Assembly: GCA_029266735.1 (NCBI GenBank)
Contig: JAQSWG010000008.1
Coordinates: forward strand, 1-64,000
Reading direction: 5' to 3'
Length of the DNA stretch: 64,000 nt
DNA from: Ornithinibacter sp.
GTDB taxonomy: Bacteria > Actinomycetota > Actinomycetes > Actinomycetales > Dermatophilaceae
The notes under the pieces are model-generated. The model saw nothing but the letters and a program-made list of their open reading frames with translations. It did not search any database and was not told the DNA's origin. Each line of letters starts with the position of its first letter. Position 1 is the first letter of the stretch. This document shows, in pieces, positions 15,029 through 61,314 of this stretch. Position numbers and translations under genes: made by a program.

Positions 15029-16324
15029 TCAGCGAGCGAGCCCGATGACCCGGTGCACGACCCCGTCGAAACGCGCGGGGTCGGTGACCTGTCGTCCGTC
15101 GACGATGGCCCTCAGCCCCGGGAGACTGGCCTCGTCCAGCTCGCGGTACATCGCGTGATCGGCCTGCACCAGAGCGGCGTCGACCTGCTCCCCCACGTGG
15201 TAGGGCTCGAAGCCGAACCCCGCAAGCTCGTCGTCCGAGTACATCGGGTCGTGCACCAGGGCCGTGGCTCCACGCTCTCTGAGCCCCGCCACGAGCGGGA
15301 AGACGCCCGAGAACGCCGTCTCCTTGACGCCACCGCGGTAGGCAGCGCCGAGCACCGCCACGCGGGCGCCCGCGAGGTCGCCGAACGCGCCCTCCAACAG
15401 GGTGATGGCGTGGTCCGGCATCCCCGCGTTGGCCTCACGCGCGGCTCGCACCACCGTGGCGTCGGGGTCGTTGAAGAGGTAGAGGCGCGGGTAGACCGGG
15501 ATGCAGTGGCCACCCACGGCGATGCCCGGACGGTGAATGTGACTGTAGGGCTGGCTGTTCGACGCCTCGATGACCGCGTGGACGTCGATGCCGTTCTGCT
15601 CGGCGAACCGGGCGAACTGGTTGGCGAGCCCGATGTTGACGTCGCGGTACGTCGTCTCGGCGAGCTTCGCGAGCTCCGACGCCTCCGGGCTGCCGAGGTC
15701 CCACACGCCGTTCGGCCGATCGAGGTCCGTGCGCTCGTCGAAGTCGAGCACCGCCTCGTAGAACTCCTTGGCGGTCTTCGCGCCCTCCTCGCTGAGGGCA
15801 CCGACGAGCTTGGGGTACTTGCGCAGGTCGGCGAAGACCCGGCCGGTGAGCACCCGCTCGGGCGAGAAGACGAGGTGGAAGTCGACGCCCTCGGTGAGTC
15901 CGGAGACCTCCTCGATCATCGGCTTCCAGCGGGTGCGCGTGGTACCCACCGGCAGGGTCGTCTCATAGGACACGAGCGTGCCGGGGGTGAGGTGCTCGCC
16001 CAGTGCCCGGGTGGCCGAGTCCATCCACCCGAAGTCCGGCTGCCAGCTCTCGTCGTCGACGAACAGGGGGACGACGATGACCACGGCATCCGCGCCGGGA
16101 ATCGCGTCGGCGTAGTCCGTGGTGGCCCGCAGACGTCCCGCGGGCACGAGCGTCGCGAGCCGGTCCGCCAGCTCCGCCTCACCGGGGAAGGGCTCCGTGC
16201 CGGCGTTGACGAGGTCGACGACGGCCTGGTTCACGTCGACACCGACGACGTCGTGTCCCTTGCTCGCGAACTGCACCGCCAGGGGCAGCCCGATCTTTCC
16301 GAGGGCAACGACCGCGATCTTCAC
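15029..16324 (-). CDS. Nucleotide-sugar dehydrogenase (UDP-GlcNAc/ManNAc 6-dehydrogenase-like; WecC/WbpA type)
   Basis: MKIAVVALGKIGLPLAVQFASKGHDVVGVDVN, FSPERVLTGRVFADLRKYPKLVG, catalytic GGHCIPVYPRLYL. Confidence 0.88.
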   Translation of the reverse strand: MKIAVVALGKIGLPLAVQFASKGHDVVGVDVNQAVVDLVNAGTEPFPGEAELADRLATLVPAGRLRATTDYADAIPGADAVVIVVPLFVDDESWQPDFGWMDSATRALGEHLTPGTLVSYETTLPVGTTRTRWKPMIEEVSGLTEGVDFHLVFSPERVLTGRVFADLRKYPKLVGALSEEGAKTAKEFYEAVLDFDERTDLDRPNGVWDLGSPEASELAKLAETTYRDVNIGLANQFARFAEQNGIDVHAVIEASNSQPYSHIHRPGIAVGGHCIPVYPRLYLFNDPDATVVRAAREANAGMPDHAITLLEGAFGDLAGARVAVLGAAYRGGVKETAFSGVFPLVAGLRERGATALVHDPMYSDDELAGFGFEPYHVGEQVDAALVQADHAMYRELDEASLPGLRAIVDGRQVTDPARFDGVVHRVIGLAR

Positions 16325-16478
16325 TCATACCTCTTTCGGACGACGGGAGTTCGGGGCGCCGGGAGGGCCGGGGGGCGCCGCGTCATCCTACTGGTGCCGA
16401 ACGCCGGCCCCGTCCGGGCACCGTCGTCCCCAGCGCGCTCCGCCGCCCCGAGCCCTTCGGCCCGACGCGGCGCCCGCA

Positions 16479-18107
16479 TCACGGGAGGTAGATCTTGGCC
16501 TGCAGGGGCAGCCAGTACCCGGCGAGCGCGCCGCTGTGGAAGAGGTAGCTCGGGCGGCCCATGACGATCCCGCTGTAGCGCGTCGGAGCCATCGACGAGC
16601 TCGTCGCACTGATCGTGATGGTCTTGTGTCCCACGACGTTGCCCGCGGAGTCGAGTCGGTATGCCGTGAACGTCGATCCGGCGCGGAAGACCACGGGGGT
16701 CTCGGGGAGGTAGCCGTGGCGGTCGATGGCGCCGAGTCCCCAGGCGATGCCGAAGCCCTCCGCCACCCACCAGCCGGCGTAGGCGCCGGCCGAGATGCGG
16801 TAGGCGATCGGTCCGCCCTTGAGCCGCTGACGGCGGTCGTACGGCGCGCCGGTGGTCCGGGAGAACGCGACGCTCCGGGTCGAGGAGATCGCTCCCGCGG
16901 AGTTGATCCGGTACATCGTGCGGACCTTGGGGGTGATCCGCAGCTGCCCGGTCTGGGCCGGTCTGGGGTAGTCGGTGCGGAACAGGCTGGCGGAGGTGAT
17001 CCACCGGCTGTCCTTGGTCATCCGCCAGAGCACGAGGAACTGCTCGACGTGGACCGGGTGGTAGCTCGGCGTGTTCACCTTGTGCCGCAGGGAGTAGACG
17101 CTGAGCCAGTTGACCCTGCGGAACTCCGAGACCACGCTCCGCTCGATGGTCCACAGGGCACCCAGGAAGAGCCGGCGAGCCGCATCGTCCCCGGTCAGCT
17201 GCCAGTAGTCGTGCAGTCCGTACATCGCGAAGACGTGCCCGTTGAGCACCATCTCGCTGTCCGCGACCGGGTAGCGCGGGTACTCCTCCAGCCAGAGCCG
17301 TCCGGCACCGTCGACCCGCGACGAGAACGGCGCCGTCCCCTCCGGGGCCTGGAGCAGGCTGAGGAACGTCGCGTCGGCGGCGAGCCGCCACTGGGCGTCG
17401 CCGGTGACCTCGAACAACCGGACGAAGACCGAGAGGGCTTGCCCCTGCGCCATGGCCGAGTACCACGGAGCCTGGAGGGTCTCGCTCGTGTCACCGTGGA
17501 CCGCGAAGTCGAAGTCGTAGGGGTAGTACCAGGCGCCGGCGGACTCGACCCGCCGGTCGACGAGGCGCTGGGCGTTCTTCGCGGCCGTCTCGAGGTAGAC
17601 GGGGTCCTTGGTCAGGCGGTACGAGTTGAGGTTGTGCAGCGCGTACTGCGCCTGACCGACCGGATGGTTCCACTGGGTGGTCTGCCCCGGCCAGACGAAC
17701 ATCCGCACTCCGGTGGCATCACGGGTGCCCCACCCACCCCGTGGGGACACGGAGGTGCTTTCGTAGCCCCGCGTCCCCACGGCGACCCGCTGCATGACCT
17801 CGGTGGAGAGCGTGTAGCCACTGATCGGGACGGTTGCCGTACGGTCCCCGTCGGCCGCCTGGAGCCGGGCTGCCTCCTGGCGCTCCTTGACCAGGCGAAC
17901 ATCCCGCTTCGGGGCGCTCGGCGTCCCCTCTAGGCGGCCGAAGTCGTCGGGCACCGTGCCGGTGGTGGGGTCGGGCACGACCTCGACGACACCTCCCAGC
18001 GCGCTCGTCACCGAGGTGACGGACCCAGCCGACGCGGTCGGCGCCACGAGGAGAGCGGCACAGAGGCCGAGTGCCAGCAGCGTCAGGATGGACGGTCGTC
18101 GAGTCAC
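16479..18107 (-). CDS. Secreted D-glucuronyl C5-epimerase family protein
   Basis: Signal peptide; AWYYPYDFDFAVHGDTSETLQAPWYSAMAQGQALSVFVRLFEVTGD, EYPRYPVADSEMVLNGHVFAMYGLHDYW, SYHPVHVEQFLVLW. Confidence 0.85.
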   Translation of the reverse strand: MTRRPSILTLLALGLCAALLVAPTASAGSVTSVTSALGGVVEVVPDPTTGTVPDDFGRLEGTPSAPKRDVRLVKERQEAARLQAADGDRTATVPISGYTLSTEVMQRVAVGTRGYESTSVSPRGGWGTRDATGVRMFVWPGQTTQWNHPVGQAQYALHNLNSYRLTKDPVYLETAAKNAQRLVDRRVESAGAWYYPYDFDFAVHGDTSETLQAPWYSAMAQGQALSVFVRLFEVTGDAQWRLAADATFLSLLQAPEGTAPFSSRVDGAGRLWLEEYPRYPVADSEMVLNGHVFAMYGLHDYWQLTGDDAARRLFLGALWTIERSVVSEFRRVNWLSVYSLRHKVNTPSYHPVHVEQFLVLWRMTKDSRWITSASLFRTDYPRPAQTGQLRITPKVRTMYRINSAGAISSTRSVAFSRTTGAPYDRRQRLKGGPIAYRISAGAYAGWWVAEGFGIAWGLGAIDRHGYLPETPVVFRAGSTFTAYRLDSAGNVVGHKTITISATSSSMAPTRYSGIVMGRPSYLFHSGALAGYWLPLQAKIYLP

Positions 18108-18240
18108 GTGTGCAGGTTCCTTGGCGTCACGGCGCGCTCGTGATGGCGCTCCTGAGTGGTGGTGGAGTGTACGGCGTCCGCGACCCCCCGTTCGCGGGCG
18201 TGTGCAAGGGTACTCCACGACGGGACCTAGGCTTGCCCGA

Positions 18241-19299
18241 ATGAAGGTCCTCAGCATCGTCGGTGCCCGTCCACAGTTCGTCAAGCTGGCCCCCATCGCG
18301 CACGCCCTCGAGTCGGCGCGACACGACCACGTCATCGTGCACACCGGCCAGCACTACGACGTGCGGATGAGCGACGTCTTCTTCGACGACCTGGACATCC
18401 CTGAGCCGGACGTGCACCTCGGGGTCGGCTCCGGCAGCCACGGCGTCCAGACCGGTGCCATGCTGTCCTCCCTCGACGCCGTCCTCGAGGAGCACGCGCC
18501 CGACTGGGTGCTCGTCTACGGCGACACGAACTCCACGATCGCCGGTGCCCTGTCGGCGGTGAAGCTGCACATCCCGCTCGCGCACCTCGAAGCGGGTCTG
18601 CGCTCGTTCAACCGTCAGATGCCCGAGGAGCACAACCGGGTCCTCACGGACCACGCGGCCGACCTCTGCCTCGCCCCGACCGAGGTGGCGATGGGACACC
18701 TCGCCGCCGAAGGGCTGGCGGCCCGGTCGATGATGACCGGAGACGTCATGACCGACGTCTGCCTCATGGTGGCCGACAGGGTGGGCGACGTGCGCGCGGC
18801 CCTGCCCGAGGGTGTCGGCGACCGCTACGTCCTCTCGACCATCCACCGCGCCGAGAACACCGACGACCCCGAGCGCCTGCGGGGCATCGTCAAGGGGCTC
18901 GCGTCGCTGCCCATCCCGGTGGTCCTCACGGCCCACCCGCGCCTCGTGCAGCGGGCGCGCCACCACGGGATCGACCTCGACGAGGGATCGCTGCACACCA
19001 TCGAGCCCCTCGACTACCCGGCCATGGTGAGAGCGGTGAGGAACGCGCACCACGTCGTCACGGACTCCGGCGGGCTCCAGAAGGAAGCGTTCCTCCTCCG
19101 CACGCCGTGCACGACCGTGCGCACCGAGACGGAGTGGACCGAGACCGTGGACCTCGGGTGGAACGTCCTCGCCCTCGACCCGGCCGACCTGCCGGCGCTC
19201 GTCGCCCGCCCCGAACCTCCGGCGACGGACGAGACCCCGTACGGCGACGGCCACGCCGCCCACGCGGTGGTCACGGCCCTCGTGAGCAACCGTCGGTGA
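18241..19299 (+). CDS. UDP-N-acetylglucosamine 2-epimerase (non-hydrolysing; WecB/WbpI family)
   Basis: KVLSIVGARPQFVKLAPIAHAL, HTGQHYD, YGDTNSTIAGALSAVKLHIPLAHLEAGLRSFNRQMPEEHNRVLTDHAA. Confidence 0.93.
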   Translation: MKVLSIVGARPQFVKLAPIAHALESARHDHVIVHTGQHYDVRMSDVFFDDLDIPEPDVHLGVGSGSHGVQTGAMLSSLDAVLEEHAPDWVLVYGDTNSTIAGALSAVKLHIPLAHLEAGLRSFNRQMPEEHNRVLTDHAADLCLAPTEVAMGHLAAEGLAARSMMTGDVMTDVCLMVADRVGDVRAALPEGVGDRYVLSTIHRAENTDDPERLRGIVKGLASLPIPVVLTAHPRLVQRARHHGIDLDEGSLHTIEPLDYPAMVRAVRNAHHVVTDSGGLQKEAFLLRTPCTTVRTETEWTETVDLGWNVLALDPADLPALVARPEPPATDETPYGDGHAAHAVVTALVSNRR

Positions 19300-21047
19300 G
19301 CGGCCTGCGCACGGCGGTGCCGCCGCCGGTCCGCCGGATGCTGCGGCCCGGGGTGAGGGCCGCGCGACGCGGCGCCCGCGTCGCGAGGGCGCTGCCGAGG
19401 ACGCCCCGACAGGCCCGCTCCAGGCTCGAGAAGGTGCTCGACCACGTCGTGATCCCCGACGAGCGCCATCGCGCCCGGCTGCTCGCAGCGTGGCGCCTGC
19501 GCACCCGCCTGGGAGCTCTCGGCCGCCAGGACCGACTGGCCGGCCAGGCGCTCGGGCTCGGTCGACGCCTGGCCCGGCGAGGGGAGGTGGAGACGGCGAT
19601 CGCGGTCTACGCGGCGGGTGAGACCGCGCTGCGGTCGCCCGACTCGCGCCTCCTGCTGACGGTCCAGCGGCTGGCACTCGAGCTCCGACAGGGCACCGTG
19701 CCCGCCGACCTCTGGGACCGTGCCCGTGACCTCCTGGCGGCGGCGGACCGCGCGCTCGGCCGAGAGGACCTCGATGCCGCCGGGACACGTCTCCAGGAGG
19801 CGTTCAACCTCGGGTTCCATCGGACGCTGCACTTCGAGGACATCCCGTCCCCCCTCTCCACCGACCCGGACACCTTCCTGGCGCCCTTCGTGGAGTCGTC
19901 GACGTTCCGCCTGGCCACCAGGGCCGGGGACGGCCGCCGCCCGCCCGCCGGAGACCCGGCCACGCGGCCGCACCGCCTCCTCGTGACGACGTTCATGAAC
20001 TGGAACTTCGTCGGCGAGATCATCGACGACTACCGCAACACCGCGGGCGTCGAGGTCCGCACGGTCGACCTCAAGGAGATCCCCGACGGCCCGTGGCGCG
20101 CGCAGCCCGTGGACCTGGTCAAGGACCGGCTGCGACAGGCCACCGGTGGTGGCGGTGTCGACCCACCCCCCGAGGTGCGCGAGGCGTTCGACTGGGCGGA
20201 CACGGTGTTCGTCGAGTGGGGGCACCGGGCCCTCCCGTGGGTCTCGATGCTCCCCGAGCTGCGAGCACGGGTCGTCGCCCGGATCCACAGCTACGAGGCG
20301 TTCACCCCGATGCCGATGCACACCAACTGGGCAGGCATCGACGACATCGTCTTCGTGTCGCCGCACATCCGGGCCCTGTGCGAGGTCACCGTGCCGGAGA
20401 TGGTGGCGCACGCCCGTATCCATACGATCCCCAACCGCAACGTCCTCGCTCCCTACCTGCGGCCCAAGCACCCCGGCGCGGAGTTCACCCTCGGGCTCCT
20501 CGGGTGGAACAACGTCACGAAGGACCCGGCGTGGGCGCTCGACCTGCTGGAGGCCCTCCGTGAGCACGACGAGCGGTGGCGCCTACGGCTCGTCGGGAGC
20601 AACTTCCCGACCAGCAACCTCACCGGCGCGGCCACGGCATACCGCGACGCGCTGCTCCGCCGCATCGCCGCGCTGGGCGACGCCGTCGAGCGTCCGGGCT
20701 TCAGTGACGACGTCCCCGAGGCGCTGCGCCACGTCGGCGTGATGCTCAGCTCGAGCCGCCGGGAGGGCACGCACGAGGGCCTCATCCAGGGGGCGGCGAG
20801 CGGTGCGCTCCCCGTCGTGCGCAACTGGCCGTACGTGGCGCGTTGGGGCGGTGCCAGGACGATGTTCCCCGACGAGTGGGTCGTCGAGACGGCCGGTGAG
20901 GGTGCGGCCCGCGTCCTGGAGGCGACCCGGGCGGGGGCGATTGGTGAACGCGCAGCGTCGCTGGCAGAGTGGACGCTCGGACGTTATGACTGGTCGGTCG
21001 TCCGCCCGCAGCTGGACGCCCTGCTGCTCGACCGGACCCGCACGTGA
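19296..21047 (+). CDS. Glycosyltransferase family protein (GT4-like)
   Basis: FMNWNFVGEIIDDYRN..., LGWNNVTKDPAWALDLLEAL, VMLSSSRREGTHEGLIQGAASGALPVVRNWPYVARWGG; GTG start overlaps upstream stop. Confidence 0.75.
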   Translation: MSGLRTAVPPPVRRMLRPGVRAARRGARVARALPRTPRQARSRLEKVLDHVVIPDERHRARLLAAWRLRTRLGALGRQDRLAGQALGLGRRLARRGEVETAIAVYAAGETALRSPDSRLLLTVQRLALELRQGTVPADLWDRARDLLAAADRALGREDLDAAGTRLQEAFNLGFHRTLHFEDIPSPLSTDPDTFLAPFVESSTFRLATRAGDGRRPPAGDPATRPHRLLVTTFMNWNFVGEIIDDYRNTAGVEVRTVDLKEIPDGPWRAQPVDLVKDRLRQATGGGGVDPPPEVREAFDWADTVFVEWGHRALPWVSMLPELRARVVARIHSYEAFTPMPMHTNWAGIDDIVFVSPHIRALCEVTVPEMVAHARIHTIPNRNVLAPYLRPKHPGAEFTLGLLGWNNVTKDPAWALDLLEALREHDERWRLRLVGSNFPTSNLTGAATAYRDALLRRIAALGDAVERPGFSDDVPEALRHVGVMLSSSRREGTHEGLIQGAASGALPVVRNWPYVARWGGARTMFPDEWVVETAGEGAARVLEATRAGAIGERAASLAEWTLGRYDWSVVRPQLDALLLDRTRT

Positions 21048-22408
21048 GACTGAGGACCCACCACATCGTGAGCAGACCGCACCTGTTGTACCTCGCCTGG
21101 GGCTTCCCCCCGGCGGCGAAGTCCTGCACCTACCGCATGCTGGCCACCGCGAACTCGTTCAACCGGGCCGGGTGGCGGGTCACCGTCCTGACCCTGTCCA
21201 AGGACGCGTGGCTTCGCGAGCACGGACTCGACGAGTCGCTCCTGGATCTCGTCGACCCGGAGATCGAGGTGGAGCGGCTCCCCCTGTACCGCGAGGACCT
21301 CGAGACCGACATCCGCACCTACAGCCGGCTGCGGGCCCAGCGGCCCAAGCAGTGGATGAAGTGGCACCGCCGGCAGGACGTCCGTCAGTTCCCGGAGCTG
21401 GTGTTCGGCCGCTGGTACGGCGAGCTCGTCGAGGCGACCAGGGCGATCCACGACCGCGACCCGGTCGACCTCGTCCTCACCTCTGCTGCGCCGTACACCT
21501 TCTTCGGGCCGGCTCTCGACCTCTGGGAACAGGCCCGGGTGCCCTTCGTGCTCGACTACCGCGACGCCTGGTCGATCGACATCATCCATGACAGGCCGGC
21601 CTTCTCTCCGACGAGCCGTCGGGGACGGATCGAGCAGCGGCTGATGGCGGCCGCCCACGAGGCGTGGTTCGTGAACTCACCCATCCGCGACGCCTACGCC
21701 CAGCTGTACCCGCATCGCGCGGACGACCTGCGGATCGTCATGAACGGCTCCGACGTGGCCATCGGCACCAACCGCATCCCGCTGCGCCACCCGGAGAAGG
21801 ACGAGGGTCTCGTCTTCGGCTACCTCGGCACGGTGACCTTCAAGGCCGAGCGCACCCGCGCGCTGTGCGAGGGTTGGCGCCTCGCGGGGGAACGCAGCGA
21901 CGTGATAGCCCGGTCGTCCTTCGTCTTCCGTGGGCACCTGGGGGCGGGCTCGGCCCGAGGGGTCAACGCCCACGCGCGCATCATCGCCGAGTACGCGGAC
22001 CAGGGGATCAGTTACGGCGGTCCGGTCGCCAAGGCGGAGACGGCGGCCGTGTACGCGTCCTGGGACGCGCTGGTCCTCAGCCTCGTCGGGGGACGGTACG
22101 TCACGTCGGGCAAGGTCTTCGACTACGTGTCGACCGGTCTGCCCGTCATGTCGGCTCACGGGAAGGACCACGCGGCGACCGAGGTCCTTCGGGACTACCC
22201 GCTGTGGGTCCGCAACGACGGGCTGACCGCCGAGGACCTCGCGCGGGCGTTCATCGCCACGGCCGAGCTCGTGGAGCGGGCCAGCGTCGAGGACCGGGCG
22301 CGAGCCCGGCAGTACGCGGAGCGATACGAGAGGTACGCCCAGATCGAACCGGCGGTTCAACGGTTGACCTTGCACCTCGCGCCCGCCCTGGTGGAGTCGG
22401 CCCCGTGA
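21044..22408 (+). CDS. Glycosyltransferase (GT4-like)
   Basis: LLYLAWGFPPAAKSCTYRMLATANSFNRAGWRVTVLT, FVLDYRDAWSIDI, FGYLGTVTFKAERTRALCEGW, GKVFDYVSTGLPVMSAHG. Confidence 0.85.
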   Translation: MRLRTHHIVSRPHLLYLAWGFPPAAKSCTYRMLATANSFNRAGWRVTVLTLSKDAWLREHGLDESLLDLVDPEIEVERLPLYREDLETDIRTYSRLRAQRPKQWMKWHRRQDVRQFPELVFGRWYGELVEATRAIHDRDPVDLVLTSAAPYTFFGPALDLWEQARVPFVLDYRDAWSIDIIHDRPAFSPTSRRGRIEQRLMAAAHEAWFVNSPIRDAYAQLYPHRADDLRIVMNGSDVAIGTNRIPLRHPEKDEGLVFGYLGTVTFKAERTRALCEGWRLAGERSDVIARSSFVFRGHLGAGSARGVNAHARIIAEYADQGISYGGPVAKAETAAVYASWDALVLSLVGGRYVTSGKVFDYVSTGLPVMSAHGKDHAATEVLRDYPLWVRNDGLTAEDLARAFIATAELVERASVEDRARARQYAERYERYAQIEPAVQRLTLHLAPALVESAP

Positions 22409-23033: not shown

Positions 23034-24020
23034 TCAGACGGTGATGGTCTGCCCCGTGGCGGCCGACTGGATACAGGCCTCGGCGACGCGCACGGTAGCG
23101 AGTCCCTGCTCGAGGGTCACGATGTCGGCGTCCTCGCCGAGCACCGCGTTCCGGAACTGCTCGTGCTCGACGCGAAGGGGCTCGGGCTTGGGGATGGCGT
23201 AGCGCACGACGTCGCCCTCGGACACGCCACGGAAGTTGGCGATGTCGTCCCACGTCGTCGCCACCTCACCGTTGGCGTAGTAGGTGAGGTCCGCTGTGAG
23301 GGTGTCCGCGACAAGGGTGCCCCGCTCGCCGGTGATGATCGTGACGCGCTCCTTGAGCGGCGAGAGCCAGTTGACGAGGTGGTTGGTCACCGTGCCGTTC
23401 GACAGCTGGCCGACCACGGCCACGAGGTCCTCGTGCTCGCGGCCGCTCTTGTATGCCGTGCGCGCCGCCACGGTCACGAAGCTCTGCTGGGTGACCCACG
23501 CCGTGAGGTCGATGTCATGGGTCCCGAGGTCCTTGACCACGCCCACATCGGCGATGCGAGCAGGGAAGGGACCCTGGCGGCGGGTGGCCACCTGGTGCAC
23601 CTCGCCGAGGTCGCCGGCCTCGAGGCGGGCCCTGGCCTGCTGGAGGGCGGGGTTGTAGCGCTCGATGTGGCCCACGGCGCCGACGAGGCCCCTCGTCGCG
23701 AAGGCGTTCGCGAGCTTCTCGGCCGCCGGGGTGTCCGGCGCGAGCGGTTTCTCGATGATCGCGTGGACGCCCGCCTCCGCGAGCGCGAGGCCCACCTCTT
23801 CGTGGTAGGCCGTCGGCACGGCGACCATGCAGTAGTCGATGCCGGCGGCGATGAGCTGGTGGATGTCCTCGTGCACCGGACGCCCCGCGGCGGCGCCGTG
23901 GACATCGCCCCCGGGGTCGGCGACCGCCACGAGCTCGACGCCCGGCAGCGACCCGAGCACCCGGGCATGGTGACGCCCCATCATCCCCAGCCCGATGAGT
24001 CCAGCACGCAGGTCGGGCAC
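23034..24020 (-). CDS. Gfo/Idh/MocA oxidoreductase (UDP-N-acetylglucosaminuronate 3-dehydrogenase, WlbA/WbpB-like)
   Basis: RAGLIGLGMMGRHHARVLGSLPGVELVAVADP, EKPLAPDTPAAEKLANAF, GHIERYNPALQQARARL, DLGTHDIDL. Confidence 0.85.
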   Translation of the reverse strand: MPDLRAGLIGLGMMGRHHARVLGSLPGVELVAVADPGGDVHGAAAGRPVHEDIHQLIAAGIDYCMVAVPTAYHEEVGLALAEAGVHAIIEKPLAPDTPAAEKLANAFATRGLVGAVGHIERYNPALQQARARLEAGDLGEVHQVATRRQGPFPARIADVGVVKDLGTHDIDLTAWVTQQSFVTVAARTAYKSGREHEDLVAVVGQLSNGTVTNHLVNWLSPLKERVTIITGERGTLVADTLTADLTYYANGEVATTWDDIANFRGVSEGDVVRYAIPKPEPLRVEHEQFRNAVLGEDADIVTLEQGLATVRVAEACIQSAATGQTITV

Positions 24021-24022
24021 CG

Positions 24023-25111
24023 TCAGGCACCAGCCGCCGCGAGGGTGTTGACCGCGGCGACGATCCGCTCGAGGTCCTCCTGGCTCAGCGACGGGTGGAC
24101 GGGCAGCGACAGGCACTCCGCGGCGGCCCGCCTGGTCTCCGGCAGGTCGACGTCGACCTGGAAGGGCTTCAGCTCGTGGTTCGGCACGGGGTAGAACATC
24201 CCCGAGCCGACGTTGTGCTCCTCGCGCAGGGCCTTCGCGAAGCCGTTCCGGTCCTCGGGGACACGCACGGTGTACTGGTGGTAGACGTGGACGGCACCGT
24301 CCGCCACCGGAGGCGGAGTCACCCCGGACAGGTGGGCCGTGAGGAAGGCGGCGTTCTCCTGCCGCGTCTTGGTCCAGCCGTCGACCTTGGTGAGCTGGAC
24401 CCGGCCGATGGCGGCGTGGATGTCGGTCATCCGGGCGTTGAAGCCCACGACCTCGTTGTGGTACTGCTGCTCCATCCCCTGGTTGCGGTACAGGCGCAGA
24501 AGACGTTCGGTGTCGGCGTCCGCCACGGAGACCATGCCGCCCTCTCCCGAGGTCATGTTCTTCGTGGGGTAGAGAGAGAACATCGCGAAGCGCCCGAAGG
24601 CACCCACCGGCGTCCCACCCAGTGAGGCCCCGTGGGCCTGAGCGGCGTCCTCGAAGATCATCAGGCCGTGCCGGTCGGCCACGGCCTGGAGCTCGAGCAT
24701 CCTCGCCGGGTGGCCGTAGAGGTGCACCGGCATGATGCCGACCGTGCGCTCGGTGATCGCAGCCTCGACGGATGCCGGGTCCAGGCAGAAGTCGTGCGCG
24801 CCGATGTCGGCGAAGACGGGGGTGGCTCCGGTGAGTGCCACGGAGTTGCAGGTCGCGGCGAAGGTGAACGACGGGACGATCACCTCGTCGCCCTCGGTCA
24901 CCCCGGACGACAGCAGCCCGAGGTGCAGACCTGAGGTCCCGGAGTTGACGGCGACGCACGAGCGCCCGAGTCCGAAGTGCTCGGAGAACTCCGCCTCGAA
25001 GGCCTTGACCTCGGGCCCCTGGGCGAGCATCCCGCTGCGCAGGACCCGATCGACCGCCTCGCGCTCCTCGTCGCCGATGAGCGGCTTGGCGGGTGGGATG
25101 AACTCGGTCAC
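24023..25111 (-). CDS. DegT/DnrJ/EryC1/StrS aminotransferase (WlbC/WbpE-like)
   Basis: IPPAKPLIGDEEREAVDRVLRSGMLAQGPEVKAFEAEF, VPSFTFAATCNSVALTGATPVFADIG, FEDAAQAHGASLGG, SLYPTKNMTSGEGGMV. Confidence 0.92.
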   Translation of the reverse strand: MTEFIPPAKPLIGDEEREAVDRVLRSGMLAQGPEVKAFEAEFSEHFGLGRSCVAVNSGTSGLHLGLLSSGVTEGDEVIVPSFTFAATCNSVALTGATPVFADIGAHDFCLDPASVEAAITERTVGIMPVHLYGHPARMLELQAVADRHGLMIFEDAAQAHGASLGGTPVGAFGRFAMFSLYPTKNMTSGEGGMVSVADADTERLLRLYRNQGMEQQYHNEVVGFNARMTDIHAAIGRVQLTKVDGWTKTRQENAAFLTAHLSGVTPPPVADGAVHVYHQYTVRVPEDRNGFAKALREEHNVGSGMFYPVPNHELKPFQVDVDLPETRRAAAECLSLPVHPSLSQEDLERIVAAVNTLAAAGA

Positions 25112-25737
25112 TGTGCAGCCTCCATCAGGCGGTCGTCCTCTTCGATGTACGTCTCGCCCGTCCGCGGGCAGGTCCAGGTCCCGTCGGGGCCCGCTTCGAG
25201 CGGGACCCCGGCTCGGCCGACCCACCTTATCCGGCGAGCCGGAACCCCCGCGACGAGCGCGAAGTCCGGGACATCGGCGATGACCACCGACCCCGCCGCG
25301 ACGAGCGCCCATCGCCCGATCGTCACAGGGGCGACGCAGACGGCACGGGCACCGATGGACGCGCCCGTGCGCACCGTCACCCCCACGGCCTCCCAGTCAT
25401 CGCCCCGCTTGAGCCTGCCGTCGGGATCGATCGAGCGCGGGTACTGGTCGTTGGTGAAGACGGCGGCGGGGCCGACGAAGACGCCGTCCTCGAGGACCGC
25501 GGGCTCGTACACGAGGGCGTAGTTCTGCAGCTTGCAGCTGTCACCCATCCTCACCCCGGTGCCGACGTAGGCCCCCCGTCCCACGATGCAGTTCGTGCCC
25601 AGCACGGCCCCCTCGCGTACCTGTGCCAGGTGCCAGACGGAGGTTCCGTCCCCCAGGCTGGCGTCTGCGGAGACGTCTGCGCTGGGCTCGATCCTCGTGG
25701 GCACGAGTGTCCTCTCCGACGGAAGCACCTCTCCCAT
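25108..25737 (-). CDS. Left-handed beta-helix N-acetyltransferase (WlbB/WbpD-like)
   Basis: SVWHLAQVREGAVLGTNCIVGRGAYVGTGVRMGDSCKLQNYALVYEPAVLEDGVFVGPAAVFTNDQYPRSI hexapeptide repeats. Confidence 0.9.
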   Translation of the reverse strand: MGEVLPSERTLVPTRIEPSADVSADASLGDGTSVWHLAQVREGAVLGTNCIVGRGAYVGTGVRMGDSCKLQNYALVYEPAVLEDGVFVGPAAVFTNDQYPRSIDPDGRLKRGDDWEAVGVTVRTGASIGARAVCVAPVTIGRWALVAAGSVVIADVPDFALVAGVPARRIRWVGRAGVPLEAGPDGTWTCPRTGETYIEEDDRLMEAAQ

Positions 25738-25841: not shown

Positions 25842-27233
25842 ATGAGCCCAGCGAACGACCGGACCAGCCCGCGGTCGCGGCCCCTCGTCGTCCTCGTCCG
25901 TCCCACCGACGTGGAGACCGACTCACGCGCGAAGAAGCTCGGCATCTCCTTGGCGCGCATCGGCTACGACGTCGTCGTCCTGGGTCGTTCCGGCACGCGG
26001 AGGCGCCGTGAGGGTCGCATCGGGAGCGCGCGTGTGACCCTGCTCGTCCCCACCTCACCCCTGCGCGACAAGCCCCGCAGACTGGTGCGGATCCCGGTCA
26101 GGCGGCTTCGGCGCTTCGAGAAACCGCTGAACGTCCGGCTCCAGAGGGCGGAGAAGTGGGCCGACGGGCGGCTGCGCGCCTGGGACCGGGAAGGTGCCTA
26201 CCTGTGGTCGGCCGCGCAGCGCGACTTCCGCGCCACGTACGGCACCGAGCTCGTCCGGCTGCTGCCCGATGTCGTCCACTGCCACGACCCCCGCATGCTG
26301 CCCCTCGCCTTCGCCGCCGCCGGGCGGGTCCGTGAGGAGACGGGTCGCACGTGCCAGGTCGTCTATGACGCCCGGGAGGACTTCGCCGGAGTCCCGCCGG
26401 AGAACGTCACCCTGCACAACTACCACCGCCGCCTGCTGCGCACCGAGCGCGCCCTGGTCCCGCGAGCGGCGGCCCTGCTCACGGTGTCCGAGGACACCGC
26501 ACGTGCGCTCGCCGAACGCCTCCACCCGTCACATCCCCCCACCGTCGTCCTCAATGCCCCCGTGGCCGGCGCCGCCCCCGTCGGCGAGGTTCGCGACCTG
26601 CGCCGCGACTGCGGCATCGGACCCGACGTGCCGCTCATGGTCTACCCCGGTGCGGCCACGGCGCCTCGCGGCGTCGACACGATGATCGAAGCCCTCGTCC
26701 ACGAGCCGGCCCTGCACACCGCACTCGTCGTCGTGCCCTTCCCGCACCCGCGCGCTCAGGACCTGACGTCACTGGCGGCACGCCTGGGCGTGACCGACCG
26801 GCTGCACCTGCTGCCGCCCGTGCCGGCCGACCACGTGCCGGCCTACCTGGCCGCGGCCGACGTGGCGGTCAGTCCGATCCTCCGGGGTCCTGCCAACCAC
26901 GAGGCCGCCCTTCCGAACAAGCTCTTCGAGATGCTGCACTCCGGCCGACCCGTGGTGACGAGCGACATCCGTGCCATGTCGGCGTTCGTCCGCGACCACG
27001 GCATCGGTGTCGTGTTCCGCTCGGGTGACGCGCAGGACCTCGCCCGAGCAGTCCGCGAGGTGCTCGACGACCCTTCGCCGTACACGGACGGGGAACGTCG
27101 AGCGCGCTTGGTCCGGGAGTGGAGCTGGCAGGCGCAGGAGGCGCCACTCGCGGCCGCCTACGCACGAGCGGCGACCCCGGGGCCGGCCCGCGGGAGTGAA
27201 CCGTTCCCTGAGGTCGTCGTCGACTGGGACTGA
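25842..27233 (+). CDS. GT4 glycosyltransferase
   Basis: DVVHCHDPRMLPLAFAAAG, VVYDAREDF, LPNKLFEMLHSGRPVVTSDIRAMSAFVRDHGIGVVFRSGD. Confidence 0.85.
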   Translation: MSPANDRTSPRSRPLVVLVRPTDVETDSRAKKLGISLARIGYDVVVLGRSGTRRRREGRIGSARVTLLVPTSPLRDKPRRLVRIPVRRLRRFEKPLNVRLQRAEKWADGRLRAWDREGAYLWSAAQRDFRATYGTELVRLLPDVVHCHDPRMLPLAFAAAGRVREETGRTCQVVYDAREDFAGVPPENVTLHNYHRRLLRTERALVPRAAALLTVSEDTARALAERLHPSHPPTVVLNAPVAGAAPVGEVRDLRRDCGIGPDVPLMVYPGAATAPRGVDTMIEALVHEPALHTALVVVPFPHPRAQDLTSLAARLGVTDRLHLLPPVPADHVPAYLAAADVAVSPILRGPANHEAALPNKLFEMLHSGRPVVTSDIRAMSAFVRDHGIGVVFRSGDAQDLARAVREVLDDPSPYTDGERRARLVREWSWQAQEAPLAAAYARAATPGPARGSEPFPEVVVDWD

Positions 27234-27245
27234 CGGCACACCGTC

Positions 27246-28556
27246 TCAGGCGAACTCGAGCAGCAGGTCCTCTTCGGACCAGGGTGCCGTCGGGGTCCGC
27301 AGGGCGGCGAGCGAGGGGACGCGCTCCTGGAGGCGACGGTAGACCTCGACCAGCGCCGCCTCCTGGCCCTGCCAGGAGAACTCCTCCCGGAGGGCCGCCG
27401 GGGCCGGCGCCGGCGGCGATGCCAGCACTCGGCGCAACGCGTCGCCGCACGAGGCGGGGTCGCCCTGCCGGAAGACCTCACCGAGGCGGTGCTCCCGCAC
27501 GAAGGCACTCATCGCGGCGATGTCGCTCGTGACGACCGGAAGCCCTGCGTGGAGGAACTCGAACAGCTTGTTGGGTAGGGCCATGTCGTAGCTCACCGAC
27601 GTCCCGATGATGGGACTGACGGCGACGTCGGCGGTGGAGAGGTAGGCCGGCACCTCGTGTGACGGAACCGGTGGGACGAACCGCAGCCGTTCCCCCGCCC
27701 CCAGGTCACCGGCCAGCTCGAGCAACGCGCCGGCCATCGGGTGGGGGTACGGGACCGCCACCACGGCGAGCACGATCGAGGGGAGCCGGGGGAGCGCGCG
27801 GACGACGGTCTCGAGGCCGCGAGCCGCGCTGAGGGCGCCCGAGTACACGACCAGCCGCTGGTCCGTCGTGACGCCGGCCTCCGCGCGCAGGTGGCGCGAC
27901 GCGCGCGGGATCGGCCACACGAGCGGGGCGTTGTAGACGACGGCCGGCGTGGTGGCCAGCCCGTGGTCGAGGCGGATCCGCTCGGCGATCCCGGGGCTGA
28001 CGGTGACCACCCGGTCGGCCTCTCGAATGAACTCCCCCTCCAGGGCGGCCCACCCGTCGACGGCCCGTTGCGTCCGCGCCCCCGACACGGCGAGGCTGGC
28101 GACGTACTCGTGGGCGTCGTAGACCACCGCCGGCCCGCCGGGTGCCCCGGCGAATGCCTCGTGGACTGCGCCCAGGAGGTGGACGTCGTGGACGTGGACC
28201 ACGTCCGGCACCAGGCGTCGCAGCTCGGGGACGAACGCCTTGGCGTAGGAGCGGGTCACGGGGAGGGACCGGCGCCACCTCGTCGCACGGCCGAGACGGC
28301 CCAGCCGTCGGGTCGCGGCCCACCGCGCATACCCCATGCTGGGCGCGCGAGCCGGAACGACCGGCAGTCGGGTGAAGTGCGCCCCGCCGGAGGTCGCGTC
28401 GTCACGTCGCCGACCGGGGGGTGCGACGCCGAGGACGACCACCTCGGCGCCGGCACGGGCCATCGTGTGCGCGGACTTCAGCACTCGTGCGTCGTTGACG
28501 ATCCCGTTGTTGACGACCATGACCACGCGGGGCCTGGAGATGTCCGCCTCAGTCAC
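27246..28556 (-). CDS. GT4 glycosyltransferase
   Basis: RVVMVVNNGIVNDARVLKSAHTMARAGAEVVVLG, DVVHVHDVHLLGAV, VVYDAHEYV, LPNKLFEFLHAGLPVVTSDIAAMSAFVREHRLGEVFRQGD. Confidence 0.88.
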   Translation of the reverse strand: MTEADISRPRVVMVVNNGIVNDARVLKSAHTMARAGAEVVVLGVAPPGRRRDDATSGGAHFTRLPVVPARAPSMGYARWAATRRLGRLGRATRWRRSLPVTRSYAKAFVPELRRLVPDVVHVHDVHLLGAVHEAFAGAPGGPAVVYDAHEYVASLAVSGARTQRAVDGWAALEGEFIREADRVVTVSPGIAERIRLDHGLATTPAVVYNAPLVWPIPRASRHLRAEAGVTTDQRLVVYSGALSAARGLETVVRALPRLPSIVLAVVAVPYPHPMAGALLELAGDLGAGERLRFVPPVPSHEVPAYLSTADVAVSPIIGTSVSYDMALPNKLFEFLHAGLPVVTSDIAAMSAFVREHRLGEVFRQGDPASCGDALRRVLASPPAPAPAALREEFSWQGQEAALVEVYRRLQERVPSLAALRTPTAPWSEEDLLLEFA

Positions 28557-29637
28557 GCGCGAGGACCGCCTCGACCCGCGCGGCAGCGCGGTCGTAGGCC
28601 GAGCTCGCGTCCTCCCGTTGCCTGGTCCACGACACGGCTGCCTGCATCTCTGCGCGGCGCCGCTGGGGATCGGAGGCATACGCCCGAAGGGCCGAGGCCG
28701 CATCCTCGGCGTCCCGCACGACCACGCCAGCGCCCACTTCCCGGAGGAGCTGTGCCTGGCGGGGCAGGTCGGAGACGACCGGCAGGACGCCCTTGGCGAG
28801 GTACTCGTAGACCTTGGACGGCAGGGCGTCGCGGAAAGCCGGGGTGTCGTCGAGCAGCGCGAAGCCGACCCACGATCCCTCGACGACAGACCAGGCGCGC
28901 GCCGGCGGTTGTCGCCCGTGCCAGGTCACGCGCCCGACGAGATCGGGCTCGGAACAACGGCGATCGATCTCGGCGCGGTCACTGCTGCGAACCGGCCCGA
29001 CGACGTCGAGTGTCCAGGGGGGCGAGGCCGCGACGGCCTCCAGCATCGTGAAGAGGCCCCGGCTGGGGCGCACGTCGCCCACGTAACAGGCCCGAGGGGC
29101 GTCCCCGTGAGGGCCCGGCCCTCCCACGAGATGGCCGTCGGCCTCGTTGCGCAGGATGAAGCGCTCCCTTGCCTGCAGGGGCGGCACGTGGTCGTCGGAC
29201 ACGAGGGTGAGCGCCGACGTCCGCGCAGCGCGCATGGCAGCAGCGACGACGACGCGAGCCCCCAGTGCGGTGACGCCGAGGGGCCAGTCGCGGTCCTGCA
29301 CCAGTCGTGCGTAGTCCTCGTGCACGTCCGCGACCACCCGGCGATGCCGCAGCGTGCCCACGACGCGGGCGGCGACGAGCGCGTCGGGGTCCAGGGTGAG
29401 GAGCACCCGGCCACGGGCGCGTGCGCTGTAGCGCACGGCGAGCACCGCCCGCGACGCGAAACCGGGTCGCGGCGAGGTCGTGAGGAGCACGCCGTCCGGT
29501 CCGTCGCTCGCCTCCCCCAGGCCGAGCACCTCGACGGAGAGGCCGCGGCGGAGCAGGGCGCCGCACAGCCGGTGCAGCCGGGCGTCCGCCACGTCATGAC
29601 CCGAGGTCACGATGCTGACGTCGACCGGTCGGCTCAC
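28549..29637 (-). CDS. Glycosyltransferase (GT4-like)
   Basis: VVADVHEDYARLVQDRDWPLG, CYVGDVRPSRGLFTMLEAVA, LPSKVYEYLAKGVLPVVSDLPRQAQLLREVGAGVVVRD. Confidence 0.83.
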   Translation of the reverse strand: MSRPVDVSIVTSGHDVADARLHRLCGALLRRGLSVEVLGLGEASDGPDGVLLTTSPRPGFASRAVLAVRYSARARGRVLLTLDPDALVAARVVGTLRHRRVVADVHEDYARLVQDRDWPLGVTALGARVVVAAAMRAARTSALTLVSDDHVPPLQARERFILRNEADGHLVGGPGPHGDAPRACYVGDVRPSRGLFTMLEAVAASPPWTLDVVGPVRSSDRAEIDRRCSEPDLVGRVTWHGRQPPARAWSVVEGSWVGFALLDDTPAFRDALPSKVYEYLAKGVLPVVSDLPRQAQLLREVGAGVVVRDAEDAASALRAYASDPQRRRAEMQAAVSWTRQREDASSAYDRAAARVEAVLARD

Positions 29638-30464
29638 AGGTCCTCGAGGGAGAAGGCGTCCTCGCCGACCTCGAGGAACTTGGTGTAGCCGGCGACCACC
29701 TCCTCGGGAGAGCCCTGCAGCATGAGCTCGCCCTTGTGCAGCCAGATCGCCGCGTTGCACATCTCCTTGACGCTCGCCAGGGCGTGGCTGACGAGGAACA
29801 TGGCCCGCGCTGTCGTCATCAGCTCGTGCATCTTCTCGGCGGCCTTCTTCTTGAACTTCGCGTCGCCGGCCGACAGCGCCTCGTCGATCATGAGGATGTC
29901 CGGGTCCATGTGCACGGACACCGCGAACGCGAGGCGGCTGCGCATGCCCGAGGAGTAGGTGCGGATCGGCAGGTCCATGAAGTCTCCGAGCTCGGCGAAC
30001 TCGGCGATGTCGTGCGCGCGCTCGTCCACCTGGCGACGGGTCAGACCGTTCGCGAGCCCTCCGAGGACGACGTTCTCCGTCCCGGACAGGTTGGGGTTGA
30101 AGCCGACGCCGAGGGCCAGCAGCGCGCTGATCCGGCCATGGACCTCGATCCGACCGCTCGTGGGAGGGAGGATGCCGCCCAGCGTCCTGATGAGGGTCGA
30201 CTTCCCGGCACCGTTGGCTCCCACGATGCCGAGCGAGGTGCCCACCGGCACCTCGAAGCTGACGTTCTTGAGCGCCTGGACCTCCCGCACCGCCCGTTCT
30301 CCCCGGCCGAGCCGCACCACGGCGGTCTTGAACGTGGGGGTGCGCTCGAACGTCGTGCGGTAGGTGACGGAGACGTTCTGCACCCGAACCGCGACGTCGT
30401 CGACGGGCAGCGGTGCGGCGACGGCATCCGGCGCGCGACTCTCAGAGGCGAACAGCGAACTCAC
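29634..30464 (-). CDS. ABC transporter ATP-binding protein, polysaccharide/teichoic-acid export type (TagH/Wzt-like without long C-terminal domain)
   Basis: VGTSLGIVGANGAGKSTLIRTLGGILPPTSGRIEVHGRISALLALGVGFNPNLSGTENV, YSSGMRSRLAFAVSVHMDPDILMIDEALSAGD. Confidence 0.93.
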   Translation of the reverse strand: MSSLFASESRAPDAVAAPLPVDDVAVRVQNVSVTYRTTFERTPTFKTAVVRLGRGERAVREVQALKNVSFEVPVGTSLGIVGANGAGKSTLIRTLGGILPPTSGRIEVHGRISALLALGVGFNPNLSGTENVVLGGLANGLTRRQVDERAHDIAEFAELGDFMDLPIRTYSSGMRSRLAFAVSVHMDPDILMIDEALSAGDAKFKKKAAEKMHELMTTARAMFLVSHALASVKEMCNAAIWLHKGELMLQGSPEEVVAGYTKFLEVGEDAFSLEDL

Positions 30465-31347
30465 GCTCCCTCGACATGAAGTACAGGAAGCCGACGACGA
30501 CGGCGGCGACCGCCCAGCCGGCAGCCATGACCCAGATCCCGGGCGGTGGGACGTCTCCGCGGACGAGGAGGTCGGTGAACCCGCCGAGGATGGAGTAGAG
30601 CGGGTTGAACTTCAGGAAGGGTGCGAGTCGCGCAGGAACCTCCTCGATGAACCACAGCACGGGGCTGAGGTACAGCCAGATCCGCAGGAAGTACGGCAGG
30701 AAGCTCGTCGTGTCCCGGAAGTACACCTGGAGGGTGGCGAACATCGCCGCCATCCCCGCGGCGAAGACGACCATGCACCCCATGAAGTAGACCGCGAGCA
30801 CCATCGTCCACGACCAGGGCAGCCCCATGGCGGCGTGGATGACGAAGTACACCACGAGCGGCGGGAGGAAGCGGAAGAAGGCGGTTCGAACGGCCGACAT
30901 GGGCATCAGCAGCCGCGGGAACGCCATGTTGCCGATGAGGGCACCACCACCGACGACCGACCGTGCGCCGGTGGTGAGCGCCCCGGAGATGAAGTAGAAG
31001 GCGAAGATGCCGGCGGTGAGGTGGGCGAAGAAGGGCCCGGGCTCGTCCCGCGGCGCGAGGATGAAGAGGAGGACGAAGTAGACGGCCGCGAGCAGCAGCG
31101 GGTTGAGGACGAGCCAGATCTGCCCGAAGAACGTCCGGGTGTTCGCCGAGCGCATCTCCGCACGGGACAGCTCGGCGGCGAACGGGCGCCGGTGCCACAG
31201 CTCACGGAAGTAGGGGACGAGTGGGGGCAGTCCCACCCGGTGAGGCTCGTACACCTGCACGTCGCTGAGGTAACCCGACTTGCTGGCTCGGTCCACGGCC
31301 GCCTTGTTGGCCGCGTGGTCGGCCGCCGACATGCCGGCGCTTGGCAT
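30442..31347 (-). CDS. ABC-2 type polysaccharide export permease (TagG/Wzm-like)
   Basis: SANTRTFFGQIWLVLNPLLLAAVYFVLLFILAPRDEPGPFFAHLTAGIFAFYFISGAL; multiple TM helices; adjacent to ATPase. Confidence 0.9.
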   Translation of the reverse strand: MPSAGMSAADHAANKAAVDRASKSGYLSDVQVYEPHRVGLPPLVPYFRELWHRRPFAAELSRAEMRSANTRTFFGQIWLVLNPLLLAAVYFVLLFILAPRDEPGPFFAHLTAGIFAFYFISGALTTGARSVVGGGALIGNMAFPRLLMPMSAVRTAFFRFLPPLVVYFVIHAAMGLPWSWTMVLAVYFMGCMVVFAAGMAAMFATLQVYFRDTTSFLPYFLRIWLYLSPVLWFIEEVPARLAPFLKFNPLYSILGGFTDLLVRGDVPPPGIWVMAAGWAVAAVVVGFLYFMSREREFAVRL

Positions 31348-31417
31348 ACGGTCACCTGTCTTCCTGCTGTGGGCGGGGGGCGGGGGCGCGACCTCCGGCG
31401 CACCACGACCCGACTGG

Positions 31418-32587
31418 TCAGTGTAGAGGACCCGCGACGGCTCCTCCGCTGAGGTGGAGCGAGACCAGGCGGGCGGCGTCGCGGGCCCAGGTGAGCTGCT
31501 CCCTGGCCCGGGCCACCCGTCGCAGGTACTCACCGTGGCCGTCGACCAGCTCTCGACAGGCCCGCACGAGGTCCGCTGGGTCCCCGGGTCGGTACAGGGT
31601 CCCCAGGCCGTGCTCCCGGACGAGCCCCGCCAGCTCACCGACGTCCGTCGCGACGACCGGGACCCCGAGGCTCACCGCGTGGAAGACCTTGTTGGGAAGG
31701 GCCAGTCGATGGTTCTCCCAGCGGTCGCTGTGGGTCACCAGGGCAGCGCCCGCGGCGGCCAGCTCCACGTCGAGGTCGGCGACGGGGACCGGGGGTCGGA
31801 CCTCGCAGGATCGCGCGTCGAAACGGGAGAGCCAGTGGTCGTCCGCCGGCCCGCGGAGGACCATCGGGAGCCCGACCTGGTCGCTGGCGGCCGCGACGAC
31901 CTCCAGCTCCCGATCGGCAGCCAGCCGACCGGCATACAGGAAGGCGGTGGGCGGTGACGACACCGTCACCGCATACGCCGGCTCGGGGAACGTGTTGCGC
32001 ACCACCGTGATCTCCGGCCATCGCGGGTGGTCCCGCCGCAGCGCCCGGGCGACGCCCTCGCCGACGGTGATGACCGCGGTGGCCCGCTCCCCGAGGCGGT
32101 CCTCCTCGCGCGCCTCGCGACGACGCAGCAGTGGCGCCGGCCGACCCTCGACCGGCCGTCCGACCCAGTACTCGTGGGTGTCGTAGACCAGGGGGCAGCC
32201 CCACTCCTGCGCCAGGGCGGAGCCGACCGGCAGGGCCGTGAAGTCGTGGGCGTGGACCACGTCGGGTGCTCCGTGCGTCGCCGCCCAGGTGCGGCCCGCG
32301 GCGAGGGCCTCGTGGCGCCAGGCAGACAGACGGCGCCGCACGTGCACCGGCAGCAGCGCCCAGCGAGCCAGCCGCTCCGGGGCGGTCAGCTCGCGCTGCC
32401 GGGCGGCCGAGCTGGGAGGCGCTCCGCAGGACTCCACCGTCACGCCCTCTGGGGGCACGAAGCCGGCAGGAACACCGCGGCCGATGATGTGCACCCGACG
32501 GCCCGCAGCGACCAGCGCCGACGCCTCGCGCAGCACGCGGGTGTCCGTGGACACGCCGGTCCAGACGAGCATCAGCACCTGCTGCAC
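31418..32587 (-). CDS. GT4 glycosyltransferase
   Basis: GVSTDTRVLREASALVAAGRRVHIIGRG, PDVVHAHDFTALPVG, VYDTHEYWVG, LPNKVFHAVSLGVPVVATDVGELAGLVREHGLG. Confidence 0.87.
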   Translation of the reverse strand: MQQVLMLVWTGVSTDTRVLREASALVAAGRRVHIIGRGVPAGFVPPEGVTVESCGAPPSSAARQRELTAPERLARWALLPVHVRRRLSAWRHEALAAGRTWAATHGAPDVVHAHDFTALPVGSALAQEWGCPLVYDTHEYWVGRPVEGRPAPLLRRREAREEDRLGERATAVITVGEGVARALRRDHPRWPEITVVRNTFPEPAYAVTVSSPPTAFLYAGRLAADRELEVVAAASDQVGLPMVLRGPADDHWLSRFDARSCEVRPPVPVADLDVELAAAGAALVTHSDRWENHRLALPNKVFHAVSLGVPVVATDVGELAGLVREHGLGTLYRPGDPADLVRACRELVDGHGEYLRRVARAREQLTWARDAARLVSLHLSGGAVAGPLH

Positions 32588-32654
32588 GCGGACTCCTGGA
32601 CGGTCGGGACACCCGGCACCGGCAGGCGGCGCCGGCCCGAGCCTAGCGACGGGC

Positions 32655-35217: not shown

Positions 35218-35335
35218 GATCGACCAGTATCGATCAGCCCGGCACGCCCGGCGTTGAGGCGATGAGGAGCGGTGTGTCGCGGCGGTGTCCGGAGCGGTTG
35301 GTCACCTGTCGCGTGGAGCAGGGGACAATGGGTGG

Positions 35336-36667: not shown

Positions 36668-36821
36668 CGGCCGACGAGCAGCGATCGGTCGGTGTCCTTG
36701 CGGCGGCGCCTGGCACCGCCGCACGGGCGGTCGCGTGCGAGGGATCCCGCTGGGCGCCGCTACACTCGTCGCCGGAGCGTGGCCCGGTCATCACCGCGGC
36801 ACAGGGACTGGAGGAGCGAGT

Positions 36822-60927: not shown

Positions 60928-61013
60928 GTGTCCTGCCCCAGACCGCGCGACGCGCTCTCGGTCGGACAGAGGAGCGGCGTGCGCGCACGCCGGATCGAGA
61001 TGTGGTGGTGCAT
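60924..61013 (-). CDS. Candidate 29-aa leader peptide ORF (MHHHISIRRARTPLLCPTESASRGLGQDT)
   Basis: SD-like GGAGG 8 nt upstream of ATG; stop overlaps start of downstream gene (ATGA). Confidence 0.45.
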   Translation of the reverse strand: MHHHISIRRARTPLLCPTESASRGLGQDT

Positions 61014-61314
61014 GGTGTGGTCCTCCGGAACCCTGATGTCCGTCTCCATCGACATCGGACGCGCAGTGCGCGCCCCGTGTGGCGCACCGAGGCGCGTCCA
61101 GCCCGGGTCGAGGCGAGGCCCCGTGGAGGCCGACGCCGGCAGTGGTCACCCACCGCCTCGCATCCTGCTCCCATCCCTCGTCGTCGCCTATGGCCCGTTG
61201 TGACTATTTCTTCACCAGATCACGATGAACCTTGACTTTGCGTCACTTCCGTCCCGGAGACCCCGACGGCAGTCTGCCGCCACAAAGGTGGGTGACCCTC
61301 GGCAGACCACCACA

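Follow-up and report, generated by a model that had tools for sequence, protein, structure and literature searches.

Within a polysaccharide locus of the window (the whole 64,000-nucleotide stretch of Ornithinibacter sp. DNA that was analysed) lies a gene for an exported member of the catalytic family typified by the D-glucuronyl C5-epimerase Glce. That the protein is a real, conserved and exported member of this family is well supported by computation; it is very probably a C5-epimerase, and we are confident that it works outside the cytoplasm. We propose that it docks at the cell wall and there tailors a teichuronic-type polymer by converting D-ManNAc3NAcA to L-GulNAc3NAcA, a reading to which we give an even chance. 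The gene and its main parts are as follows.

16479..18107, minus strand: gene for the secreted Glce-type uronate C5-epimerase, 542 residues (PF06662, PDB profile, AF2 and Foldseek)
18027..18107, minus strand: Sec-type signal peptide, residues 1–27 (cleavage between TASA and GS, by inspection)
16995..17525, minus strand: C5-epim_C catalytic domain, residues 195–371 (PF06662)
16482..16982, minus strand: C-terminal tandem β repeats, residues ∼376–542, predicted SH3/GW-like wall-binding module

The preliminary description had placed here an open reading frame with a signal peptide and a C5-epimerase-like region, and all three were borne out. The frame begins on the minus strand with a GTG codon at 18107, preceded by a Shine-Dalgarno AAGGA. 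The signal peptide, MTRRPSILTLLALGLCAALLVAPTASA followed by GS, is of the Sec type by inspection and is the most hydrophobic segment of the N-terminal part (KD 2.54). The match to PF06662 (C5-epim_C) has an E-value of 4.5e-32 and a score of 111.5 bits, far over the Pfam cut-off of 23.3; a search of NCBIfam returned no matching model. The GC content and third-position GC of the gene are those of its neighbours. Comparison with the closest relative, in genome G001, gives a dN/dS of 0.08 in the C-terminal part of the gene, 0.19 in its N-terminal part and 0.13 in wbpA, and as judged from this pair of sequences the gene is under purifying selection.

The surrounding locus contains the following genes.

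15029..16324, minus strand: WbpA-like UDP-HexNAc 6-dehydrogenase (TIGR03026, 300 bits; UDP-ManNAc dehydrogenase models second)
18241..19299, plus strand: WbpI/WecB-like UDP-HexNAc(3NAc)A 2-epimerase (PF02350, E 5e-91; TIGR00236)
19308..21047, plus strand: glycosyltransferase (weak PF13692; homologue in L061)
21044..22408, plus strand: GT4-like glycosyltransferase (weak PF13439; homologues in L061 and L135)
23034..24023, minus strand: WbpB-like UDP-GlcNAcA 3-dehydrogenase, Gfo/Idh/MocA (PF01408/PF02894; NF040723 the top NCBIfam model)
24023..25111, minus strand: WbpE-like 3-aminotransferase, DegT/DnrJ (PF01041, E 4e-116)
25108..25737, minus strand: WbpD-like hexapeptide N-acetyltransferase (PF00132)
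25842..27233, plus strand: glycosyltransferase (PF13692/PF00534)
27246..28703, minus strand: glycosyltransferase (PF13692/PF13439)
28549..29760, minus strand: glycosyltransferase (PF00534/PF13524)
29634..30464, minus strand: Wzt/TagH-type polysaccharide-export ATPase (PF00005; top models NF010065 and NF050108)
30442..31638, minus strand: Wzm-type export permease (PF01061, NF050109)
31418..32857, minus strand: glycosyltransferase (PF13579)
32655..33623, minus strand: family 2 glycosyltransferase (PF00535)
33694..35217, minus strand: LCP glycopolymer-peptidoglycan ligase (PF03816, TIGR00350)
35285..36667, plus strand: LCP glycopolymer-peptidoglycan ligase (PF03816, TIGR00350)
36735..38345, plus strand: LCP glycopolymer-peptidoglycan ligase with LytR_C (PF03816, PF13399)
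39710..40876, plus strand: Ugd-type UDP-glucose 6-dehydrogenase (NF011631, 607 bits, under the cut-off of 757)

Domain and model matches thus agree with the earlier placing of the epimerase gene between a uronic-acid nucleotide-sugar dehydrogenase, here the co-directional, downstream WbpA-like gene, and a UDP-GlcNAc 2-epimerase, and with the description of the gene at 39710 as UDP-Glc-dehydrogenase-like, the NCBIfam model being of the Ugd type. Homologues of WbpA, WbpB, WbpE, WbpD and WbpI are all present, with specificities assigned by homology, and the locus is predicted to encode the five steps from UDP-GlcNAc to UDP-ManNAc3NAcA. The Wzm/Wzt exporter and the three LCP genes adjoin this set. 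The acidic polymer made from UDP-D-ManNAc3NAcA would be built in the cytoplasm, exported by Wzm/Wzt and linked to peptidoglycan by the LCP enzymes. According to the sections consulted of PMC13274773, ManNAc3NAcA in the teichuronic-type wall polymer of Streptomyces griseus is assigned to the same five-enzyme set, the same pathway leads there to a wall polymer that hangs on wall teichoic acid, and no C5-epimerase is mentioned for that utr locus; the locus in the window has one, together with Wzm/Wzt and LCP genes.

Comparison with two related loci, L061 (genome G004) and L135 (genome G112), delimits the epimerase gene as an insert.

16325..18240, no strand assigned: insert between wbpA and wbpI, holding the epimerase gene alone (against L061 and L135)

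The gap between wbpA and wbpI is 1,916 bp in the window, compared with ∼125 and 136 bp in L061 and L135, where the two genes are divergent neighbours and share ∼80–82% DNA identity with the window on both sides. Since these two loci have no epimerase in the gap, synthesis and export of the polymer do not need it. Such apparent dispensability is as expected of a tailoring enzyme, and the epimerase would be a single accessory gene in the locus. In the genome that carries L061, an epimerase homologue (L024) is retained at a distance of 31 kb from the wbp genes.

Relatives with PF06662 and their neighbourhoods were collected from Actinomycetota samples of 188 family, 396 order and 397 phylum genomes; a search of genome contigs for related loci gave four loci only, all close relatives. 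The domain occurs in 20 of the 188 family genomes, and WbpB is present in 19 of these 20, compared with 89 of the 188 overall. Counted by genus, WbpB accompanies PF06662 in 9/9 cases against 25/53 overall in the family sample (p 4.6e-4) and in 15/16 against 53/110 in the order sample (p 5e-5), a co-occurrence that may come partly from genomes rich in polysaccharide genes, the nulls keeping the general clustering of such genes. The epimerase has WbpB and WbpE close by in the window and in L021, L022, L029, L048, L049 and L118, a pattern that needs at least six separate changes on the tree. Signal peptides are seen by inspection in four of these seven epimerases (the window, L022, L029 and L048) and not in L021, L049 or L118, and the equivalent of Tyr578 of human GlcE is missing from L029, L049 and L118 in the alignment; the association with wbp genes therefore spans possibly non-exported or non-catalytic variants. 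These last three (L049:5531-6868, L118:9328-10821 and L029:8792-10735) keep the equivalents of Tyr560 and Asn510, and may be inactive or use a different mechanism. L021:8146-10080 joins an NAD-dependent epimerase/dehydratase domain (nucleotide-sugar SDR) and a C5-epimerase domain in a single frame, possibly a cytoplasmic fusion.

Most PF06662 relatives are not beside wbp genes, among them L024 and a second paralogue of the same architecture in the host genome (G000:C24:8065-9732; L002/L027). This secreted paralogue and L028 of G001 share the C-terminal repeats (45% identity) and adjoin an apparent aceE, and wbp genes are absent from their fetched flanks. No recognisable polysaccharide partner gene was found among the clustered conserved neighbours of the non-wbp homologues. 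Elsewhere, one epimerase copy is broken by a TAA stop (L060:9222-10886, G167:C8), through pseudogene formation or sequencing error, and L101:8963-11415 holds two adjoining C5-epimerase genes, one per strand, whose products both have a transmembrane-like segment at the N terminus. The general form of our proposal, a wall-docked switch of Glce fold that turns manno to gulo units in a finished Gram-positive teichuronic-type polymer, gained as one accessory gene in a locus conserved in other respects and associated with wbp genes several times independently in the Actinomycetota, is tentative, and we rate it a little below even.

The exported enzyme, held at the wall by its C-terminal repeats, would edit the acidic wall polymer of its own locus after synthesis and after export. 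Its Glu/Tyr/Asn/Tyr/Tyr set would take the C5 proton from a polymer-bound uronate and re-protonate the opposite face, most likely turning β-D-ManNAc3NAcA into α-L-GulNAc3NAcA in part of the chain. It is likely that the polymer of the locus is what the enzyme acts on, whereas ManNAc3NAcA as the residue attacked is evenly poised. ManNAc3NAcA has not been described as a Glce-type substrate; the literature searched yielded no mention of GulNAc3NAcA among the papers listed, and none of PF06662.

The preliminary description had offered two products, L-iduronate or an L-gulo-configured diamino uronate. The second is favoured, because the WbpA/B/E/D/I set is complete, because the relatives are repeatedly linked to wbp genes and because the fetched flanks (∼10 kb) of the other wbp-linked epimerases contain no UDP-glucose dehydrogenase; the first retains a precursor, GlcA being available because UDP-glucose dehydrogenase is encoded in 111 of 120 family genomes. 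The main rival to ManNAc3NAcA as substrate accordingly keeps the same enzyme in the same place and has it convert D-GlcA to L-IdoA, giving a heparin-like product in this polymer or in another supplied through the Ugd gene at 39710. Characterised Glce-type enzymes do use GlcA (PMC13308652, PMC4432689). The window itself holds a Ugd-type gene, and 30 of the 34 PF06662 genomes tested have genes resembling that of UDP-glucose dehydrogenase. The near-universal presence of this dehydrogenase, however, makes its co-occurrence uninformative as a discriminator of substrate, for which use it was rejected, and the fetched flanks (∼10 kb) of the other six wbp-linked epimerases (L021, L022, L029, L048, L049 and L118) carry the diacetamido pathway and no Ugd-like gene. 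We consider GlcA an unlikely substrate.

Less probable again is another N-acetylated uronate, with ManNAcA converted to L-GulNAcA or GlcNAc3NAcA to L-IdoNAc3NAcA. Two epimerases, L109 and L120, have WbpI and WbpA in their vicinity and no WbpB, a setting that points to ManNAcA; UDP-GlcNAc3NAcA is also a precursor in the pathway of the window, and GlcNAc3NAcA is used in a wall polymer of Streptomyces antibioticus (PMC13274773). Against these points, the presence of WbpB, WbpE and WbpD in the locus makes plain ManNAcA improbable, and WbpI yields the manno form.

The comparison of fold and active-site residues with Glce/Hsepi-type epimerases, proposed in the preliminary description as a test, came out in favour of a Glce-type enzyme on both counts. 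The single sequence already finds the solved structures of zebrafish and human Glce at E-values of 1e-9 to 1e-10, and a profile of 44 PF06662 relatives finds Glce in the PDB at 8.4e-49. An AlphaFold model built for the mature protein (pLDDT 89.7, pTM 0.88) has the α-helical Glce fold; the top eight Foldseek matches from the PDB are Glce without exception (E 3e-8 to 2e-7; rmsd 2.3–3.0 Å over ∼223 columns, 22–24% identity), with GH76 mannanases and AGE-superfamily epimerases ranked behind them. The catalytic residues of human GlcE are Glu499, Tyr500, Asn510, Tyr560 and Tyr578 (PMC13308652). In an alignment of 82 domains that includes zebrafish Glce, all five are kept, as Glu275, Tyr276, Asn289, Tyr338 and Tyr349, so that the assignment is not undercut by a missing active-site residue.

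17280..17285, minus strand: catalytic pair Glu275-Tyr276 (GlcE Glu499-Tyr500; alignment with zebrafish Glce)
17241..17243, minus strand: catalytic Asn289 (GlcE Asn510; Glce alignment)
17094..17096, minus strand: catalytic Tyr338 (GlcE Tyr560), motif YSLRH, in Glce YDLRH (Glce alignment)
17061..17063, minus strand: catalytic Tyr349 (GlcE Tyr578), motif YHPVH, in Glce YHTTH (Glce alignment)

The same alignment shows the WYSAMAQG motif of Glce, and Arg341, His342, His350 and His353 are identical to their Glce counterparts. Two other classes of epimerase were considered and rejected. The fold of the mannuronan C5-epimerases AlgG and AlgE is a right-handed β-helix, unrelated to that of the window protein, whose domain is α-helical and gives no β-helix match in Pfam or the PDB; a C5-epimerase of the Agl32/AGE-like kind does not fit the presence of the Glce residues or the ranking of the AGE-superfamily folds under Glce.

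Lyases and C5-epimerases have their first chemical step in common, and a polysaccharide lyase or turnover enzyme, in which abstraction of the C5 proton is followed by β-elimination, was weighed as a further alternative. AlgE2 and AlgE7 do have lyase activity as well (PMC4432689), but all the Glce catalytic positions are intact in the window protein, the top eight structure matches are Glce and lyases are absent among the matches listed; a lyase is highly improbable. A wall lectin or scaffold without catalytic function, descended from a C5-epimerase, for which the predicted C-terminal wall-binding domain and the three wbp-near relatives that lack the Tyr578 equivalent might speak, is the least credible reading of all, because the window protein has every catalytic residue as well as the conserved arginine and histidines, and its gene appears to be under purifying selection.

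Docking of the proposed manno-to-gulo epimerase at the wall is suggested by its C-terminal region, two β repeats of ∼77 residues each that are 33% identical over 54 residues. The AF2 model of this domain has a pLDDT of 91.4, and its best PDB matches, all weak, are the Listeria GW autolysin 5jqc (E 2.9e-3, probability 0.99) and InlB, with its SH3-like GW repeats (E 1.3e-2, probability 0.97), followed by an SH3b endolysin and the targeting domain of ALE-1. Pfam gave no match to the domain at E-values up to 10. The repeats look SH3/GW-like and probably bind the wall. A second line of evidence comes from relatives that carry other, clear-cut wall-binding modules on the same catalytic domain, SLH in L066, L069 and L072 and CWB2 in L025 and L102; because such varied wall anchors sit on one catalytic domain, we infer that the enzyme acts at the wall. 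Among the SLH-bearing epimerases, which are from other Actinomycetota, L072 also has an F5/8 type C domain, and WbpI-like and WbpE-like genes lie near L066 and L069. The idea that the C-terminal domain is a widely shared wall module was dropped, since in 120 family genomes it is found only on epimerase proteins.

The eukaryotic heparan sulfate epimerase Glce/Hsepi (EC 5.1.3.12; PDB 4pw2, 4pxq, 6hzz, 6i01 and 6i02) has in common with the window protein the α-helical catalytic domain, the WYSAMAQG motif and the five catalytic residues. Animal Glce has a β-hairpin and a β-sandwich besides the helical domain (PMC13308652). The window protein lacks this N-terminal β-hairpin dimerisation domain and the central β-sandwich domain, ∼223 columns being alignable and its helical domain contiguous. 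Unlike Glce it begins with a Sec signal, ends in SH3/GW-like repeats and probably acts on a wall polymer of bacteria; as far as sequence and model tell, it shares the catalytic domain and is not a full animal-type Glce.

Among bacteria, PMC4432689 and PMC13308652, citing Raedts 2013, give RED65_08024 of the marine bacterium Bermanella marisrubri as the sole D-glucuronyl C5-epimerase with demonstrated activity; it is reported there to be human GlcE-like with the same mechanism, a description that likens it to the window protein. Like the enzyme proposed here, Halobacterium salinarum Agl32 is a C5-epimerase from a prokaryote whose substrate is an assembled glycan. Agl32 has an AGE-like fold without the Glce residues and works on a lipid-linked glycan before transfer across the membrane (PMC13308652), whereas the window protein has the Glce catalytic residues and a signal peptide. 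The parallel in the proposed role is with AlgG and AlgE1-7, which epimerise D-manno to L-gulo uronates at the polymer level outside the cytoplasm, AlgE having non-catalytic modules as the window protein has its repeats; these enzymes differ in being Gram-negative and in acting on plain mannuronate without N-acetyl groups.

If the proposal is correct, actinobacterial wall polymers could be edited stereochemically at the surface by one optional gene, as alginate is in Gram-negatives. A change from manno to gulo would alter the shape of the chain and, by analogy with alginate, probably its binding of cations, and would change the epitope presented to lectins and phages. Because a ManNAc3NAcA-containing wall glycan is a receptor of Streptomyces umbrella toxins (PMC13274773), a wall epimerase could also shift susceptibility to these toxins. 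The protein is in addition a lead toward Glce-type C5-epimerases with new substrates.

Beside the locus, positions 11458-13176 (open frame to 14247) of the window encode a protein with several PG_binding_1 peptidoglycan-binding domains. The product of 59185-61149 looks secreted and has a SpaA/prealbumin-like domain; it may be an adhesin or pilin of the cell surface.
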